Shown in pieces: positions 1 to 21,294 of a stretch of 64,000 nucleotides of DNA. The DNA is taken from assembly GCA_031763025.1 (NCBI GenBank), contig JASSKH010000001.1:21429142-21493141 (forward strand), written 5' to 3'. Source of the stretch: Macrocystis pyrifera. Its lineage: Eukaryota; Sar; Phaeophyceae; Laminariales; Laminariaceae. Numbering within the stretch: the first letter of the stretch is position 1; each line of letters starts with the position of its first letter. The notes beneath the pieces were generated by a model. It searched no databases. It saw nothing but the letters and a program-made list of their open reading frames with translations, and was not told where the DNA came from. Both the position numbers and the translations under genes were made by a program.

Positions 1-526
1 TGACCCTTCGATGGCTCGGAACTCCCTAAGGTCTTCGACTATGCATCTATGCCAAGTCTTAACCTGTCCGCCAGGTCTCGGGTTCTCCCCACCAGCAATC
101 ATCCCGAACATTACCCGACTGGGTAATCGATCCTTGCTTTGCCGTGCCACCCCCCCCCCCGCGAAGAAGAGACGCCGTTTGCGGATGATCATTTCGATGC
201 TCTCGCAACGTGTCATCTTGAGGGCCTTCGCGTACGAGAGGGGGGCATGGTCAGCACGCAGTCGGCGCTGGACGCCATTGACTCGCAACAGGACTTGGTG
301 GTGAGCCGTTCGAAGCTTGGCAAAGTGTTCCGCTCTGAAGGTCCACGTCACACACCCGTACAGCAGGGTCTCAATCACCTCGGCCTTCAGCATTCGGACT
401 TTCAGGCTAAGGAGGGCGGTCGTCCTATCATACAGCTCCGGGCCGAACCGCTTGAGGCATGCTCGCATGAGACGGATCCGTCGGTCGATTTCGAACGAGA
501 GGTCAGCGTTTTCGTGGATAATGCCG
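1..526 (-). pseudogene. LINE A C-terminal region beyond the foldback insertion
   Basis: The minus strand from 526 to the window edge reads as LINE C-terminal sequence: HENADLSFEIDRRI, ETLLYGCVTWTFRAEHF, a basic SIEMIIRKRRLFFAG segment, and a GGENPRPGGQ-KTWHRC-VEDLREF tail. Such tails follow the RT thumb in many LINEs. A run of C/G near 150-160 may carry a small frame change. Joining this segment to the RT frame at the six bases ATGCCG gives the continuous reading YLGG-IIHENADL, which is how I place the insertion ends. Confidence 0.85.
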
Positions 527-540
527 TGTTGCGAGTAAGG

Positions 541-800
541 GGATCCCCCTAGTTAGGGGATCCCCTCTTCATTAGGGGATCCCCTCCTAGCTTACGGGAT
601 CCCCTCCCAGCTTAGGGGATCCCCTCCCAGCTTAGGGGATCCCCTCCCAGCTTAGGGGATCCCCTCCCAGCTTAGGAGATCCCCTACTAGCTTAGGGGAT
701 CCCCTCCCAGCTTAGGGGATCCCTCACGAGCTTAGGGGATCCCCTCCGAGCTTAGGGGATCCCCTCCTAGCTTAGGGGATCCTCTAGGAGGTTAGGGGAT
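541..800 (+). repeat. Left palindromic tandem array of the foldback element
   Basis: About a dozen 20-bp units of the form CTTAGGGGATCCCCTCCCAG lie head to tail. Each contains the perfect 12-bp palindrome AGGGGATCCCCT, so each unit is itself a small inverted repeat. Confidence 0.9.
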
Positions 801-811
801 GCCCAACGACT

Positions 812-1510
812 TTAGGGTACCCTTATCATGTGTATACTGTGATATAGCGTCTCCATTCAGTTTATCCTTGACAAATTATTGTGACAATTGGGGGATCCCC
901 TAACACCATATGGATGATATCCCTATATCACAAATGATATACCAGGTAGGAGATACATCAAATCCCTAAGCCTGTCAGGGGATCCCCAACAGGCTTAGGA
1001 GAGGTTAGAGGATCCCCTACTAGCTTAGGAGATCCCCTAGGATATTGGGGGATCCCCTAGGAGGTTAGGGCCTAGGAGGTTACGGGATGCCCAACGACTC
1101 TAGGGGACCCATATCATGCGTGTACTGTGATATAGCGTCTCTATGCAGTGTATCCTTCACAAATTATTGAGACAATTGGGGGATCCCCTAAAACCATATG
1201 GATGATATCCCTATATCACAAATGATATAGGAGATACATCAAATCTCTAAGCCTGTTAGGGGATCCCCAACAGGCTTAGGGGATCCCCGTCAGCCTTACG
1301 GGATCCCTGCATACCTTAGGGATCCCCAACGGCCTTGGAGTACCCATATCGTGTGTGTACTGCATTGTACACCCAACAGACACAAATCGTGTGATATAAC
1401 GCCTCTATTCAGTTTCTCCTTCAAAAACTATCGTGAGAATTGGGGAATCCCCTATCACCATATGGATGATATCCCTATATCACAAATGATATAGGAGATA
1501 CATCCAAATG
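812..1510 (+). repeat. Three central direct repeats of the foldback element
   Basis: A roughly 150-bp block occurs three times (near 812-945, 1095-1240 and 1335-1505). Each contains a GTGTACTG-GATATAGCG segment, CAATTGGGGGATCCCC and CCATATGGATGATATCC-CTATATCACAAATGATATA. The third copy carries an extra stretch of about 30 bases after the GTGTACTG-like segment. Confidence 0.85.
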
Positions 1511-1514
1511 TATT

Positions 1515-1700
1515 AGGTAGGAGGGTATCCCCTAACCTGGGAGGGGATCCCCTAAGCTAGGAGGGGATCCCCTAAGCTAGGAGGGGATCCCCTAAGCTGG
1601 GAGGGGATCTCCTAAGCTAGGAGGGGATCCCCTAAGCTGGGAGGGGATCCCTTAAGCTGGGAGGGGATCCCCTAAGCTAGGGGGGGATCCCCTAAGGCAA
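1515..1700 (-). repeat. Right palindromic tandem array of the foldback element
   Basis: About nine units of AGGGGATCCCCTAAGCTGGG, the reverse complement of the left array, at the same 20-bp period. Confidence 0.9.
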
Positions 1701-1714
1701 AAGCGATTCCCTAA

Positions 1715-2347
1715 CTAGGGGGATCTCCTAACGCGCAACATGCCGCCTAGGTACAAGAACTGGGCCGTCTGCTTATACCTCTGGCCTGCTGCTTCGATAA
1801 CGAGCGGTGGTGCGAGGGTTTTCTGGTCTGGCGTTTGTAGAAGCATAGTCTCTGTCTTCCTTTCCGACACCGTAAGGCCTGCTGCTTCGAAGACAGTCAC
1901 GAAGACTGTCATCATTTTCGCGAGCCCTTCAGCCGACTTCGAGACAATCCCTGCGTCATCGGCGTACAACATGCCCCACACAGCCCTTCGCACGCACGCC
2001 AACGGCTCCTGCTCCTCCGTTCCGACTACTCCGGCATCACAGAGTTGGACCAAATACCTTACGATGGCTTCGTCATGGCTAAAGCGTACTAGTACGACGT
2101 GCAACGCAGCAGCGAAGAATACGTTGAACAGTAACGGTGACAGCACACAGCCTTGTCGCAGCCCCTGCGTGACATCAAACCATTCCGAGTGCTCGCCGTC
2201 ATCCGTACGCACGCGAGCCCGCATGCCATCGTGGAAAATACACAAAATTCTCAGCATCTTGGTTGGTACGCCAAAACGTGTGAATACTTCCCATAACAGC
2301 TCTCGGTCGACAGAGTCGTACGCTTTCTGCAGATCGATGAAGCACAA
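1715..2347 (-). pseudogene. LINE A reverse transcriptase, catalytic half
   Basis: The frame opens with [17 protein letters not shown] (first catalytic Asp), continues through [17 protein letters not shown] and reaches YADDAGIVS, the catalytic Asp pair. A thumb-like region and YLGG follow. The last residues before the stop are encoded by the foldback element that enters at 1739; the true LINE reading ends at YLGG and resumes at 526 on the far side of the insertion. Both catalytic motifs are intact. The ATG at 2347 is only the first Met of the open frame, since the protein continues from the preceding fragment after a one-base shift. Confidence 0.92.
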
Positions 2348-3123
2348 GTACAGGGGGATTTCCTCTGTCTTCCAAGCTCTTGCAACCGGCGCACGACGAA
2401 CAACATATCAATCGTTGATCGTGCGGGGCGGAAGCCGCACTGTTCCTCCGGGGGAAATTCCTCGGTCTCGCAGTAGTTGCTGAGGCGGGACGCGACGATT
2501 TTCAACAAGACTTTGCCTGCGTGAGCAACAAGCGAAATCCCTCTGTAGTTGTTGCAATCAGTTCGGTCCTTCTTTTTGTGAAGGACCTTGAGCATCGCAT
2601 GTTTCCATTGCTGTGGGACTTCTCCTGATACCCAAACATTGACAAGGATGTTGTGAAAGCACTGGGCGAATGCGGGGTGGTCGAATTTCAGGAGTTCGGC
2701 CGGGAGACCATCTGGCCCGACAGCTTTCCAGTTTGACATCCCCTTAAGTGCTTCCGTCATCTCGTCCATGGATGGTTCATCTCCGAGCGACAGTTTAAGC
2801 GGTCGTGGTGGCAAGAGGTCGATGATCGTGCAATCGAGTTTAAGCGATTTCGTGTTCAAAAGTTTGTGGTAAACCCCCCCCCACCGTTCACGAATTCGCA
2901 CCTTATCCCGCAACAGCGTGCCATCCTCGTCCCTAATGAACAGTTCGCTTCTCGATTTAGTCCCTTCCAATCCTACCGTACTCTTAAGGTGCTTGTAAAA
3001 GCCTCTCTGGTCGTTGTTCGCTAGTAGTCGTTCGGTTTCAGCGAGGTACGCTTCGAAGTACGCATGCAGTCCGCGGCAATCACCCTCTGCAGGTTCGCAC
3101 ACGCAGATCTCAGTGTCTTCCAC
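2251..3123 (-). pseudogene. LINE A reverse transcriptase, N-terminal half
   Basis: This frame carries the linker and the first RT blocks: a [14 protein letters not shown] segment, [36 protein letters not shown] and [21 protein letters not shown]. These are the fingers and early palm motifs shared by non-LTR RTs. It overlaps the endonuclease frame by about 100 bases in another register, and the useful sequence enters this frame near 3060, which points to a one-base indel. It leaves this frame near 2355, at a run of C on the minus strand, where the RT continues in the frame of 1715-2347. It would copy element RNA at the nick made by the upstream endonuclease. Confidence 0.9.
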
Positions 3124-4481
3124 GCGGTTCTATCCCGGGGGTGGGCACGCAAGAATTGCCGTGCATCCTCCCTCGCTGTCCATGCTAATATAAATGCGGC
3201 CAAGGTTTCGGCAGACTCACACCATCCATGTCTGCGGTGGCGACGTGGAGGGGGTGGTACCTCTTTTTCGACCGCATCAATAGTAGCCGTAGTGAAAAAC
3301 TCAACCATGCCAGACGTATTACGGGGCTGGTTAAGCTGGTTGAGAGTGGAGATGACCCTCGCGACTACTCGTTCACGACACTTTCCATCGGACATAAAAA
3401 GCTGCCTGTCGAACTCTCGGCGTTTTGTCGGTCTATATATTAGTCTGTTGGACGCAAAGTGACCACTGAGTCGGACTTCGATATACAAGATGTTGTGGTC
3501 TGAGTCAGCCTTAGCTGGGGCAGGAGGCTGTGGGACGACTTTAACATCATGTACTCTAGGTCGATGGGCTTGACGGGTTAGGATGTAGTCGATCCGCTTA
3601 CGGTCACTCGGGCTGGTGCCGTTGCGTGTATGCGAAATCCCACCCTTGCACGTGCTGAAAAACGTGTTGGTGAGAGCTACCTTGCAATTGGTGGCGAACG
3701 ACAGAAGTCGTCTGCCATTATCGTTACGAACATCACGCCCATATGCTCCAACCACTCTACTTTCATCATCACCACACCCTTCCATCCTCTGTCCAGTTCG
3801 CGCGTTGGCAACCATCAGTACAAACAGACACTCTTTCGTCGGGATCTTTTCCACCAAGTACTCCAGCTTCTGCCAGAAACTACGTTTCAGTTCAACGTCC
3901 TAGGTACAATCAGTTGGAGCATACGCAACGACGAAATTGACTGCCTCGCATTTGCTAGCCAGCCCAAAGCGCGTAGACATAAGCCGCTCGTCAATGAACT
4001 GATGAGTGTACGCAGCCTTACTGCACAACGATTCCTTTACAGCTAGACCTACTCCGTACAGCCCTTGCCTAGCAGCTGTTGTTTCCTGACCTGAGCAGAA
4101 AACGCGATACCCTGCCGCACGAAATGTCGTGCTACTGGTTCTCCGGGTTTCCTGCAGGCCAATGAAGTCACAGCCGAGTTGCCGTCCCTTCGCCAGTACA
4201 CCCTCGTCGTGTCCGTGCCCGTTCTTTCCCTTTACAGCCAGGGTGCGCACATTGTAGGTCGCTGCCGCAACCAGTGCCTCCTTCTGTCTCTTACGAGCCT
4301 CGCGTGCTGCTTTCTTTGCCAGCCGACGTGAGGCTCGTCCCCTCCTCCTTTTTTTATTTTTTTCTTCTTTTGTTTCTTTTTCTTCTCTATGGCGAAAGTG
4401 GCTCTCCGTTTCGTAGCCCTGTACGCGCCTTGGTTTCCGTTGGCTAGGTGCTGTCGTCCCAGCCAACGCCGACACTCCCAT
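3021..4481 (-). pseudogene. LINE A endonuclease domain (APE/exonuclease III fold)
   Basis: The frame starts with a very basic, lysine/arginine-rich stretch of about 70 residues and then enters an endonuclease-exonuclease-phosphatase fold. Visible motifs are TYNVRTL near the start, GLQETR (catalytic Glu), a YAPTD strand, a DRKRIDYIL segment and the terminal SDHN motif, all in the expected order. In this family the domain nicks target DNA to prime reverse transcription. The frame holds a single in-frame TAG at about 3900-3902, just after YAPTDCT, and both sides continue in the same register. The start at 4481 is the first ATG of the open frame; the real LINE start could lie further up. The alternative, a host repair nuclease, is excluded by the adjoining RT. 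Confidence 0.9.
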
Positions 4482-4700: not shown

Positions 4701-6899
4701 GAAGCTCGATGTTCGCGTGACTGTCGCTACACCGTTGCAGGTCCTGGCGGACTTCCTCGGCCCACCCCAAGGACGGGGCAGGCCGAAGAGAGATGGTTTG
4801 TATTCACCCCGACGAAAACAAACATTTTCTTCTAGAATATTATTACAATCATGGACATTTACATTGGTTATTACTCACGGGATGTTCCACACCTTTTCGT
4901 TCATAATAAAAACGACGACTCCTTTTTCGCAGGTGGTCATATCACTGCAGGTCGCCAGTTTGCGATTTTTTCCATCATCAGACATGAACCTCCTACTCCT
5001 TATTTGTGTGGATACTAGAACTACTAATATAATTGCAGCAGGGCCTGGAGATACGAGTGTTCGTGGCACTGCTCGATGCCTTGGATACTACTGTGACCAG
5101 TACCAGTTGAATGCTCCCTTGACAATGCAGGGAGCCGGCCCAGACACTTTTTGCTTGCCTTGCCAGGACTTTACATGAGTTTGGTGGCACCGCCCTACTG
5201 TTGACAGGACAAACGTACCTATGCAGCCCACCGCAGGTAGTACTCGAGCTAACTGAAGCAGACCCAATACATCACAACTCAGATTCCAGGCATAGTTTTT
5301 AGCGTTGGTGTGTGTCAGCCTACCTCCCCCTTCTGTGTGCTCGAGACCGACAGCAAGTATCACGTCAGCATTTCTTTTATCTACTGTACGTGCCTACCAG
5401 CACTAGGGAAACGATTCCAAGGTTATGTTGAAATCTGGTCACACCCAGCCGGCTTTTCGACGCTTTCCGTCTGCTCGTATGGACGTAAACACGATCGCAA
5501 ACAACCGCTCGTCCCAAGCTCCTGCCGATAGTCACAAGCTGCCTGGCAAACACAGGTAACCCGCAAGCCAGTGTGATATTGATACGGGCTCACTTGCTAT
5601 GCCGAGCTATATCCAGCTCATGACGAAGGACAGCGTATTATCATATTTCGGTGCACGCGACAACGACAGCTAGCTGCAGTATGTATACAGCAGTACATGT
5701 ACTACTGTAAAAGTATCGTGGGTCGCTAATCTGTTCTCCAGTATATAAATACGCGTAGTATCTCTAAGTTCACGAGAGATGCATGTTTTGTTCACAACCG
5801 ACGGAATTAATTATTCATAGTCATGGGCTCTACCGACGGAAACTAATACCTGAAATCTCCCAGAGGCAGAGAGAAGAGAAGAACGGCCACACTCGTCCCG
5901 CGCCCCCGCCTAGCTTCTCATGATAGGTGCACAAGCAGAGCACGGCACTGCTCGCTGCCGATTGATAGGCCTAGAGGCTAGGGCTACTGTTGTGGTTTCT
6001 AGCAGCAACAGCGGCGGTCGGCGGGCTACAGCATGCAACGGGAGGAGGAAGAGCAGGGGCAACGAGCGCTTTCCCGGTATGTGTGCGAGAGGCGCGCGAA
6101 CTAGCGGGGGTCTCGGGCGTTCGTGGGGACCCTGAACTCGATTACAATGGGGCGTGGGGCAGTCGACTCTGGTTCGCAATGATACACAAGCCCGTCTCAT
6201 GCGTCCGCAAGCAAGCATCGCTAACTCGCTTGCGCTGCCAGCCATGATTTTTCCCAAGTGGTTTTTGTTTCTTGGCCGGTTCGTCCCAGCGGATGGGGAA
6301 AAAGCAGCTTGTACATGCATGAAGTTATTATAGCTGGCACGGGTAGAAGGAAACTCATGTCCTTTCTAAACCCGCGAATACGCGAATCGGCCATTCACAG
6401 GAGGGAACACTGAAGATAGCTGCAGCAGCATAGACAGGACTTCTGCCTAAGAAGTAGGTATAGGTGACTGAGACGAGCGTACCACCGGCGCAGAGAGCAC
6501 CTATCACGTACCAGACACATCCATAGAAGGCTATACCTAGGAAACGAAATACATACCCGGACCTAGACGCCGGAGCGGAGGGCATATGTGGTGTACGAGC
6601 ACATGCCAGGTTTATTTTCCTTTGCCTTTTCTCGCAGATCCTGTACCCAGGAACGCGATACATTCTCGCATATACTGCTATATATCGACGTATGCCTGAT
6701 ACTCTCGATCTCACAGCTGACGGCTGTCTAGGTTTTTTTATAGGGACGAACAACGCCGGGCCAGTGCCTTCGGCCCTGACCCCGTTCACTATTGGAGATG
6801 TTACTTGACAGTAGCTATCATTTTGTCGTCACTGGATAACACGGAATAATCTGGTAATACCAGGTATACCTTATAAGGAATCCGTAAAAGATCGATTTT
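4701..6899. other. No recognisable gene
   Basis: Short open frames occur here (for example plus 4717-5178 and minus 5910-6320), but none shows a domain or motif that I recognise and none has supporting context. 5740-5760 holds a TATA-like CAGTATATAAATAC of unknown significance. Confidence 0.5.
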
Positions 6900-6995
6900 G
6901 GGTGTGTCATTACCTGACGAACGTTGTCATAGGCCGTAATCGAGTACGGGTGTGTCATCACCTGACGAACGTCGTCGTAGGAGATATATGTATCT
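6900..6995 (+). repeat. 48-bp tandem duplication
   Basis: Two adjacent units begin GGGTGTGTCATYACCTGACG at 6900 and 6948 and differ at only a few bases. Confidence 0.8.
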
Positions 6996-7697
6996 GTTGA
7001 AGATCATCAAGATTGGAACAACAAACAGGAGCGTTTGCACGCCCACTTGTTTCCTCTACTTTAGCTCACCATCATCAGCTTCCAGCTGAGCAAGTGAATC
7101 AGCACTGTGGCTTGGGGTCACCACACCATTTTCTTCTTCTCTTCTGTTGAAGCTTCTCGTACAGGTCACCGAACAGTGGCTATACGTTTGCCTCTAAAAT
7201 TTTGACTGTGTATTGACCGGCCATCGGCAATCGAGTCTAGGCGTACACACCAGCTACGAGCTGGTACACACGCTCACCGCCATACCTAATAGGTTAATTA
7301 GCCTCGGAACGCGTAAACGCGGCAAGCTACTAGCAACGGTGGCCCAAGACCGCCACCCTGAACTGCTACTGGCTCGCTATACAGCAGTAGGAAGACTGGA
7401 CTTTTTCTAGATCAACAAACCTGCTGCTACGTACGAAAAAGGGAGCTTCTTCCACGACGAGAGGAACCAAACATCGAAGGTCTACGTACTTCGTTGAAAC
7501 GTGAGTGACACGTGGTGCGGACACCGCGTGCTTCTGAGAGGGCCCTGCGTAGGGCATTCTACTACTGCTGTCGTTCACTACTGCTGTAGTCAAAATGCTG
7601 TAACTACGATAGAGGCACCCACAGAGCACCACCGCGTAAGGAGCTGTGAAAATCTCACCCGCTCCCCTTTGTCTTTCATAAACGAGGACCAATAATC
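6996..7697. other. No recognisable gene
   Basis: Only short unsupported frames are seen between the 48-bp duplication and the compound repeat that starts near 7.7 kb. Confidence 0.5.
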
Positions 7698-18299: not shown

Positions 18300-18404
18300 T
18301 TACGGGGGTCCATAGTTAACAGGACCAAATTTTGTTGGTAAAAATAGGTAAATATATAGTTTTTTATGTATACCATAGGTCCTATTAACTATGGACCCCC
18401 GTAA
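18300..18404 (+). mobile_element. MITE copy 1 (105 bp, TA target duplication) inside LINE B
   Basis: Ends TTACGGGGGTCC and GGACCCCCGTAA form a near-perfect inverted repeat of about 27 bp. TA flanks both sides (18298-18299, 18405-18406). Removing the element and one TA joins NEYAP to RRWREGVVV in frame. The TA duplication and size fit Tc1/mariner-type MITEs. Confidence 0.95.
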
Positions 18405-18820
18405 TAGGAGGTGGAGAGAAGGAGTAGTAGTAAATTTATTCAAGAAAGGAGATAAGGCTGACCCGGGGAACTACAGAGGGATGACGCTACTAAGCACAGT
18501 AGGCAAAACATTTTGTAAGATTTTGAACGATAGAATGGGAACGATGATGGAGAAGGAAGACAAAATAAGCGAAGGGCAAGCAGGGTTTAGGCCAAACCGT
18601 AGCTGCGTAGACCATGTGTACACCTTAGGTAAGATATGTCAAGGTAGGAAAGACGCGGGACTAACACCGTACTGTTTCTTTCTAGATGTGCAGAAAGCCT
18701 ACGACACAGTATGGAGAAATAAATTGTGGAAAAAACTGTGGGAAATAGGAAATAGAGGAAAGATGTGGAGAAAGATGAAAAAGATGACGGAATGTGCGAG
18801 AAGTGCTGTGATGCTGGACG
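18405..18820 (+). pseudogene. LINE B reverse transcriptase, central part
   Basis: The RT resumes RRWREGVVVNLFKKGDKADPGN, then NYRGMTLLSTVGKTF, AGFRPNRSCVDHVYTL and CFFLDVQKAYDTVWR (first catalytic Asp), and stops matching after SAVMLDD. The QG and YADD motifs that should follow are absent; the sequence changes to a GC-rich unrelated element within a frame that happens to stay open. This is therefore a 3' truncation by insertion or rearrangement. Confidence 0.9.
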
Positions 18821-21294
18821 ATCACGTGATGGAGCACTTTGCGGTTGCCGACCGCCCGGCGAACCAGGCCAGGCTGGCGGCTCTGGTGACGAAGGACCTC
18901 GAGACCTTCGCGCTCGACCTGCATTGTGTCTCCGACTCCTGCGGCCACGCTTGGGCCTACCCCCCGCCGGTGGAGTCCTTCCCCGTCATCCCGGGGCCCC
19001 ATTGTCCCCGCCTTTCCGGATACGTCGCCCTCGGCGGCCTGATCAACGCCGAAGCCCAGCAACCTCGCCGCACATCCGCCACGGTGGCCGGGGTCGGGGC
19101 CGGTGAATGCCGGCAGTGGGGGAAGACCGGCAAGTGCCGCTTCGGTGACGCCTGCGTGTTCACCTAAGTCGGCCCCGCTCGCAAGACGAGCAGCGGCAAC
19201 AAGCGCAAGGCGGCTACCGGCGGGGGCTCGGCCGATAGCGGCGTCGCAGCCAGCGGCGCTGCATCCGGGGAATCCCTGGCCAAGAGGGCCAAGGGCAAGG
19301 GAAAAGGGGGGGCGGGGGGCGGGGGGCGGCGGTGCGAGTAACGGGAGCAGCGACGGCGGTAGCGGCGGCAATGGCAGCGGCAGCGGCAGCGGCAGTGGTA
19401 GCTTCGGCGGTTCCGGCAGCGGCGGCAGCGGCAGCGGCAGCGGTAGCGGCAGTGGCAGCGGGGCGTCGAGCGGGGGGGGGGCTTCACTCGCTCGGCGGCG
19501 GCCAGGACTGACGAATAGGGGGACGGGCCTCGCCCCTCAGCAGGGGCGAGGCCGATCGTAGGGCGTATGGAAGCAACAGCGCGAGATGCGCAGCTTGCAC
19601 GTCCGGGGTCGGCGTCCGTTGGGGGACCAGGTGTGACGAGTATGCTCGGCCGTTGTGTAGTGTTGTTGCGCGATATGCAGCATGTCGCATCGCCTACTAG
19701 CGCGTCTCGGTCGGAGATTATGGACCGCGTAGCTCAGCAGTATGTGCAGTATTTTCCGGCGAGTGGTAGCCGCTTTGGGTGTATGCGGGCCATCGAGACA
19801 TCCTTGAACGTCCCGCGTGTGAAAGCAGCTAGGATTCGTTTTTGGTTCCGACGACAGAAAGGGTTCCGTGGGGTAGAGCAGTTAGCGGATATCGTCGAAC
19901 ACGGCGCGCCCGTCCACGTGGAAGGGACCAAAGACATTGGCGCGGCCTTGGCATACTCAAACCATAGCAGCGTAGCCCGACACTCTGACACTGTAATCGC
20001 GAAGATTTTTGACGACGTACGGTTTGGGCGGGCAGTCATATTTCCGCACAGCGAGGCGCACACCATCCCCGGCTTGCGGTTGTCTCCGCTAGCCGTGATT
20101 GTATCCCCGTCTCAAACTCGGATCATCCACGATCTGACGTTTTCGTCGTCGCAGTACGCCCACGGCGTCAACGCGGATACTGACTTCGAGCGAGCCCCCC
20201 CCGTGGTGCTGGGCCACGTGTTGCGAGACGTTATTTGGCGCATTTTGTACCTTCGTCGGCGTTTTGGACCGAGCGCGCGTATTGTTTTGAGTAAAATCGA
20301 TACCACTGAGGCGTTCCGTCAGGTTAGCGTACAGTGGGCAGGGGCGCCCGTATTTGGATACGGATTTCGCGAGTGGATTGTGACCGACCGCCGGCTCTCC
20401 AGTTCGGATGGCGCAGTTCACCGGGGTTCTTTTGTATGTTTTCGGCAGCCCTCGGACACGCGCATCGCCACACGTCGTACGAGGATGCCGTGGTGATGGA
20501 TCAGGGGCGTATCGCGCACGTCGCGGTCACCCCGCCGAGGAAACCGACCGGCCGACCCCCTTTCCACCTGGGTGCCGGGTCCCCGTCGGGAAGGGGGGGG
20601 GAGGCGTAGCCAATTTTTCGCGCGGTATTATGTAGATGACGGGATACTAGTGCAGGTACAATGGTGGCCCGACGGTCGGCGCTGTAGACGCGCGTCCGCA
20701 TCTCTGGCGTCGGACCATTTTCGGCTTTTCGGGGAGAGCTCCTCATGGGACCCCCCTCTGCTGTCTTCTCGAAAGATATCACAGTGGGACACCGTGTTGT
20801 GCGTGCTGGGGTGGGAAATTGATACCGTGGCACTGACTATTTCCGTTCCCGTAGCCAAGCTGGAACAACTCCGCGACACGCTGAGCGAGTGGCCTTCGGA
20901 CCGCGCGTTCGCGTCCGAGGGAGAGCTCCGCTCTCTGACCGGTCAGTTACTGCACCTGTGCGAAGTCGTGCGACCAGGAAAACACTTTGTTCGACGCATG
21001 CTCAACCAAGTAGGCCTGGCCCCTGTTCGCGCGTGGAGCGAGAAGTTCCACGTGCCGCACGCGCGCGCGGCGTCGTCCTCGCGGATTCAATTGGGTCCTG
21101 AGTTCCACGCCGATGTATCCTTCTGGCGTCTGTTGGTAGAAGGAGGGCTAGGCTCCGTGGCGGGTCGCCCTGTGCCGAAGCTACATGCAGCCGCCGGCGT
21201 TTACACTGTGATCAGACGCTTCCGGCGACGCCATGGGGGGTTATTTTTTTGGGCCCGTTCCCGGGGCCGGCGTATGGTGGTGTGTCGAATTTAA
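18821..21294 (+). mobile_element. DIRS-like retrotransposon relic (fossil)
   Basis: A GC-rich element in two recognisable parts. The first (18830-19170) ends in a CCCH-type zinc finger context (CRQWGKTGKCRFGDAC), as in some gag-like proteins. Glycine/serine repeat sequence follows. The second part (about 19700-21290) is a reverse transcriptase with KIDTTEAFRQV, YYVDDGILVQ and an RNase H-like LRSLTGQLLHLCEVVRPGKHF segment, the pattern I associate with DIRS/Ngaro-type elements. No tyrosine recombinase or terminal repeats are visible. It is broken in several places; age is not measurable without repeats. A Ty3-like element is the alternative. Confidence 0.7.
19340..19490 (+). repeat. GGC/AGC-rich trinucleotide repeat
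   Basis: An imperfect run of GGCAGC units coding Gly-Ser in one frame, lying between the two parts of the DIRS-like relic. Confidence 0.9.

Follow-up and report, generated by a model that had tools for sequence, protein, structure and literature searches.

A 1214-bp element that interrupts a reverse-transcriptase gene in Macrocystis pyrifera is, with a probability that we put at about three in four, a non-autonomous inverted-repeat DNA transposon with TG..CA ends, a 6-bp target duplication and a foldback build, generated by the internal deletion of a ∼50-kb parent so that two of the parent's tips became joined. The element lies at positions 527–1740 of the 64,000-nucleotide stretch of DNA analysed here (the window). 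The marks by which a DNA transposon is recognised (defined ends, target duplication, empty site and dispersed copies) were all found, as were those of a foldback build (long inverted arms composed of tandemly repeated short units).

The window element and its host gene

The element is flanked by the two parts of a LINE (LINE A) whose coding strand is the minus strand. The upstream part (1746–3857, minus strand) contains reverse-transcriptase pieces and a further open reading frame. Matches to RVT_1 were obtained in two overlapping minus-strand frames, 1715–2347 (E = 9.9e-22) and 2251–3123 (E = 1.7e-06, just below the curated cut-off); a Pfam search of the frame at 3021–3857 returned no match. 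The downstream part (1–520, minus strand) continues the interrupted coding strand from the junction with IIHENADL. When the insert and one ATGCCG copy were removed, the LINE A frame was open for 133 codons (...YLGGIIHENADL...). An independent LINE A copy near C216:4204152–4204552 spans the junction with 334 of 401 positions identical and no gaps, and reads YLGSIIHENADL. This empty site is one copy at a single place on C216 (present in loci L008 and L032), and not the outcome of a survey. The earlier note had proposed that a transposable element was inserted in LINE A, and had predicted an empty copy reading YLGG-IIHENADL; the open joined frame bears out the former, as does the empty copy, which was found as YLGS-IIHENADL. 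Nor did the repeat array prove to be an inherent part of LINE A, the possibility that the note had set against its own proposal: the one further LINE A copy found is without it. The insertion of the element into the reverse-transcriptase gene of LINE A is thus confirmed.

The position proposed in the earlier note was right, while the length of 1213 bp has to be corrected: the ends of the family, TGTTGCG..CGCAACA, give 527–1740 and 1214 bp. On the left, the element is preceded by ATGCCG (521–526), which, with the 6-bp duplications of the family, marks the left copy of the target duplication. The right ATGCCG (1740–1745) shares its A with the last A of the element, so this junction falls one A short of TGTTGCG...CGCAACA followed by ATGCCG, and TGCCG, 5 bp, is what matches flush with the ends. 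Either an A has gone missing on the right side of the window copy, or its duplication measures 5 bp.

The arms of the element (527–752 and 1515–1740; 226 nt, 89% complementary) are built of 20-bp units around GGGGATCCCC. TRF delimited a left array at 538–804 (plus strand; unit AGGGGATCCCCTCCCAGCTT, 13.6 copies, 87% matches), a right array of the same kind of unit, inverted, at 1518–1696 (minus strand; 8.9 copies, 91% matches), and a third, poorer period-20 array at 1256–1336 (4.1 copies). Exact GGGGATCCCC occurs 21 times in the window, always inside the element (539–1692); when one mismatch was allowed, 34 units were counted in the element, with 22 of the 33 spacings measuring exactly 20 bp. 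The middle of the element (807–1514) appears by eye to consist of three diverged modules with GATATAGCG..ACAATTGGGGGATCCCCTA..ATGATATCCCTATATCAC. Folded as single-stranded DNA, the element is predicted to base-pair its two arms over most of their length. The longest stop-to-stop stretch anywhere in it is 87 codons, and an Rfam search of window positions 400–1900 gave no match. Tandem 20-bp units would also be seen if a satellite array had arisen inside this LINE copy, but the chance of this is practically nil, growth in place being ruled out by the exact ends, the duplications, the copies dispersed among many other flanks and the empty LINE copy.

Termini, target duplications and arrays in the family

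The genome searched comprises 537,376,219 bases in 223 contigs. The terminus TGTTGCGAGTTAGGGGATCC was found in it, with at most two mismatches, 196 + 188 times (control, 0 + 0); the ends that, according to the earlier note, should be sought elsewhere are therefore plentiful. With the whole element as query, a DNA search returned at least 256 matches (40 of 230 candidates scored), and the 1.2-kb window element is one copy of a large family. From the loci found in such searches, 21 outermost end pairs were chosen, leaving out one twin each of the duplicated loci on C218 and C220 (the omitted twins bear the same 6-bp duplication as their partners), four 220-bp copies on C189, one-ended places and the tips of long elements. 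The 6-bp duplication was exact in 10 of the 21 pairs and matched at five of six positions in 3; the remaining 8, the window copy among them, showed neither. In a swapped-pair control, 0 of 420 combinations were exact at 6 bp and 5 of 420 had at most one mismatch. No pair among the 21 was exact at 7, 8 or 9 bp. When all 56 end pairings within 3 kb were considered, 12 were exact at 6 bp, against 0.014 expected, and none was exact at 10 bp. The family as a whole therefore has TG..CA ends and a 6-bp target duplication. The 6 bp that the earlier note had read at the window copy thus stand for the family, and ATGCCG fits at that copy if an A was lost. Among six further loci found by position (L081–L086), five had a partner end within 3 kb, none of the five with a 6-bp duplication; two of the six, L081 and L082, seem to be long-element tips.

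Drosophila FB elements have a foldback build, non-coding copies and tandem repeats in their inverted ends; the target duplication of the P superfamily is 7–8 bp. The kelp family has the same build, with tandem units in long inverted arms and non-coding short copies, and might on these grounds be placed with foldback elements of the Mutator type (FB, Tm1, Tetris) or the P type (Galileo). According to the available text of their descriptions, Tm1 of root-knot nematodes (Mutator/Foldback) has composite inverted ends in which the number of ∼14-bp tandem units varies, short copies that resemble MITEs, longer ones that carry a transposase, and a demonstrated empty site (PMC3169594); Tetris of D. virilis has a foldback build, non-coding copies and tandem repeats in its inverted ends (PMC4079207); and Galileo has long inverted ends, tandem units that are gained and lost, and copies made of two ends only (PMC3573991). 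The duplications, however, differ from the 6 bp of the kelp family: those of Tm1, which has a Phantom-like Mutator transposase, are mostly 9 bp (8–10; PMC3169594), those of Tetris 8–10 bp (PMC4079207), and those of Galileo, a member of the P superfamily, 7 bp (PMC3573991). The unit of Tm1 is moreover unlike the kelp unit by eye (PMC3169594), and the available text on Tetris mentions no ∼50-kb relatives (PMC4079207). A 6-bp duplication is therefore at odds with foldback elements of the Mutator or Galileo type, and it would be very surprising if the family belonged to either: the 8–10 bp of Drosophila FB and Mutator were not encountered (0/21 at 7–9 bp, 0/56 at 10 bp), nor were the 7–8 bp of the P superfamily. 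The word 'foldback', used in the earlier note with Drosophila FB elements in mind, is thus apt for the build and not for membership of that family (6 bp here, 8–10 bp or 7 bp in the relatives). The note's remark that no described foldback family with this unit is known to it agrees with the literature searched (subscription papers and supplements excepted), in which no kelp foldback family and no stramenopile foldback transposon was found either.

The combination of 6 bp with TG..CA would instead point to an integrase like those of IS481, IS3EU or GingerRoot. In the available text of the work describing these groups, 6-bp duplications are usual; TG..CA ends with 6 bp are those of prokaryotic IS481 and of part of GingerRoot, and 6 bp are also given for IS3EU and Polinton (PMC10045372). 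The ends of IS3EU/GingerRoot are TA..TA and occasionally TG..CA, and those of the kelp family, TG..CA, are of this rarer type; neither long tandem arrays nor a size of ∼50 kb is mentioned there for IS3EU, GingerRoot or IS481 (PMC10045372).

The arrays change in place, by loss or gain of units at duplicated loci. At the duplicated locus on C220, where the flanks are identical at 297/299 and 295/299 positions, the gaps between the two copies amount to a single 20-bp unit and one further base. At that on C218 (flanks 300/300 and 298/300), gaps between the copies total 150 bp, of which 139 fall in the array. Arms of the same element had a mean likeness of 0.878 vs 0.857 between elements (1 of 2000 permutations was as high); in 3 of 15 elements (C143, C209 and C223) the own arms were less alike than their mean to others. 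These values hint, faintly, at a homogenisation of arms within elements.

Long relatives and the anatomy of the short copies

The earlier note did not connect the element with ∼50-kb elements; that connection is new. At C198:2933371–2984080, facing tips bound a span of 50,710 bp, and CTCGGA adjoins each of them on the outside; this is an assembly distance, in which 9.9 kb of interior beyond the tips were read and ∼36 kb may hold assembly gaps. The same end layout was found over 53,130 bp at C167:68728–121857, without a duplication (GGGGTG / GGGCGT). By our own reckoning the probability of a chance 6-bp match among these two facing pairs is ∼2 in 4096, which is somewhat too favourable in that the C198 duplication was found by eye, and the case for 50-kb elements is built on this one duplication-flanked pair and the one pair lacking it. 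Seven tips (C198L/R, C167L/R, C170L, C216R and C147R) run past an inner CGCAACA into common sequence. On the outside these tips have different flanks, apart from C167L and C170L, which are alike there over ∼110 bp.

Positions 527–1515 of the window (plus strand) are colinear with the tip of these elements (81.9% to C198R 1–975; 76–82% to the best tips), and positions 1520–1740 (minus strand) match, in inverted orientation, the 221 bp at the extreme end of a tip (C216R, 91.4%). The first 989 bp of the window copy are thus tip and its last 221 bp inverted tip, the junction lying at 989/994; with its left part 76–82% like the tips, this copy is therefore no recent derivative of those seen. A split into a tip and an abutting inverted tip was found in 6 of the 18 short copies compared, the window copy and five others, the latter with junctions at 1005 in C129 (parts 94.7% and 94.8% to tips), 966 in C222 (96.5% and 93.4%), 710/711 in C203, 352–357 in C202 and 666/688 in C220:13333197. 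In four (C125, C171, C195 and C197) the two tip parts overlap, in another four (C198:6058521, C209, C218 and C220:15320305) a middle stretch is unmatched to tips, in three (C143, C189:896203 and C223) the tip matches are short or poor, and C219 consists of one inverted tip alone. That the short copies have individual junctions suggests that a long parent has repeatedly undergone internal deletion. Counting against such an origin are the 12 of 18 copies without a clean split into two abutting tips, the C198 right tip, which parts from the left one after ∼1.3 kb, and the C167 pair, which lacks a duplication.

The order of events might also have been the reverse, with short foldback elements as the basic units and the ∼50-kb elements as DNA enclosed by two such units, whose outer ends mobilise it, on the model of the Ising TE of D. 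melanogaster, a composite between foldback elements (PMC6431247). This would account for the terminus copy found on the inner side of each long-element tip examined (CTCGCAACA adjoining CGGTGATCCT), through which a tip resembles a whole short element, and for the unrelated outer and inner flanks of the C198 tip. We nevertheless consider it unlikely. The sequence beyond the inner terminus is common to five of the seven tips up to ∼2.5 kb, near the end of the letters available (C167R diverges at ∼1.9 kb and C198R at ∼1.3 kb), and L081 and L082, of a diverged subfamily on C192, are colinear with it at ∼69% into the start of the C198 interior (L087:27–1609 and 27–1623); being common to the tips and colinear in L081/L082, the subterminal sequence is an inherited part rather than fresh cargo. 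The junctions, moreover, are individual to each short copy. The Ising TE resembles the kelp case in that long DNA is moved between two foldback elements, but in its available description involves chromosome segments of hundreds of kb, whereas in the kelp a long element with common subterminal sequence is repeated (PMC6431247).

The 9.9-kb C198 interior piece contains 39 open stretches of at least 85 codons; 14 distinct ones were queried against Pfam (18 queries), none scoring over the curated cut-off, and four queries from the piece against PHROGs gave nothing over the cut-off. In a search for the integrase domain rve, in which 150 of 3609 candidates were scored, the matches listed included none inside the C198 or C167 elements, which with this coverage says little; one listed match lies 37 kb inside the C216 end and may belong to a nested retroelement. 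No transposase of the long parent was recognised in these searches, which counts against the proposed deletion origin. Among viral contigs (IMG/VR), where this genome's records may be absent, neither a relative of the frame L087:4965–5900:- nor the exact terminus was found. The Pfam result and the missing terminus bear, with little weight, against a long parent that was a Polinton-type endogenous virus whose terminal repeats the short copies inherited. Polintons make 6-bp duplications (PMC10045372, available text), the length observed here, and their size fits loosely; we hold this origin to be distinctly improbable. By eye, motifs like the boxes of ubiquitin-specific proteases were seen in two frames of the C198 long element, L087:4965–5900:- and 6556–7260:-. 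That reading was rejected: the sole PDB matches of the former up to E = 1 were USP4 and USP15 (E = 0.41 and 0.52), the latter had no USP match, Pfam and PHROGs gave nothing over cut-off, and the lone-sequence fold (pLDDT 30) was uninformative.

If the short elements do derive from long ones, internal deletion of the ∼50-kb parent would join two tips into a short element, and a transposase acting in trans would bind to the TGTTGCGAG ends, the 20-bp palindromic units perhaps serving as extra binding sites. The enzyme would then cut and insert the element at a 6-bp stagger, the target in this instance being the LINE reverse-transcriptase gene, and the arrays would afterwards gain and lose 20-bp units in place. 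The type of transposase, mobilisation in trans, the direction from long to short and the role of the units are what we infer in this scheme. Binding assays could exploit the palindromes, which recur every 20 bp.

Very long DNA transposons, several of them presumably non-autonomous, are known from another brown alga, Ectocarpus (KDZ, EnSpm and Sola-1); their maximum is 30.3 kb in the available text of that study, which a 50.7-kb duplication-flanked element would surpass, and 'foldback' is absent from its main text as available (PMC12477816). A KDZ profile search gave no match in the genome, but none in 14 controls either. More tentatively, and with the odds leaning against it, the ∼50-kb parent may represent an undescribed class of giant DNA transposons of kelps, with an integrase-like enzyme (TG..CA, 6-bp stagger) and with tips that are complete foldback modules, any two of which, when left by deletion, would form a mobile hairpin. 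Such a family would be of foldback build yet belong to neither the Mutator nor the P lineage, and its source element would be available for study. For some foldback elements the source is not known: according to the available text, the authors describing Tetris found no transposase-coding copy (PMC4079207). In the kelp the origin of foldback elements is directly testable, because one chromosome-scale genome contains both the short copies and their long relatives, which agree in ends and in duplication length and whose junctions can be read.

Nested copies and neighbouring elements

L081 and L082 (C192:12012185–12015185 and 12066615–12069615) are same-facing tips of the diverged long subfamily, 54,430 bp apart. 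The two agree at 2990 of 3000 aligned positions, a stretch that takes in 200 bp of outer flank; the pair has the appearance of an entire long unit duplicated in tandem.

Elsewhere in the window, an open frame at 18391–19167 runs from a reverse transcriptase (22–124) into a CCCH zinc finger (239–257) scored at the curated cut-off, and the LINE there is apparently broken by other coding sequence. Frames at 19567–21294 resemble a DIRS-type reverse transcriptase by eye; a Pfam search of them was without match.

The four 220-bp mini-elements on C189 (303659, 345535, 404126 and 6496207; L075, L076, L077 and L080) are without duplication, and one is inverted; they are probably carried by another repeat, because their flanks are common to all. 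At C194:155826 (L009), an end is flanked by GGGGATCCCC, as though its element had inserted into another copy's array. At C126:3300428–3303017 (L036), a span of 2.6 kb between G runs contains four forward and three reverse ends, a cluster that we regard as nested or self-inserted copies.
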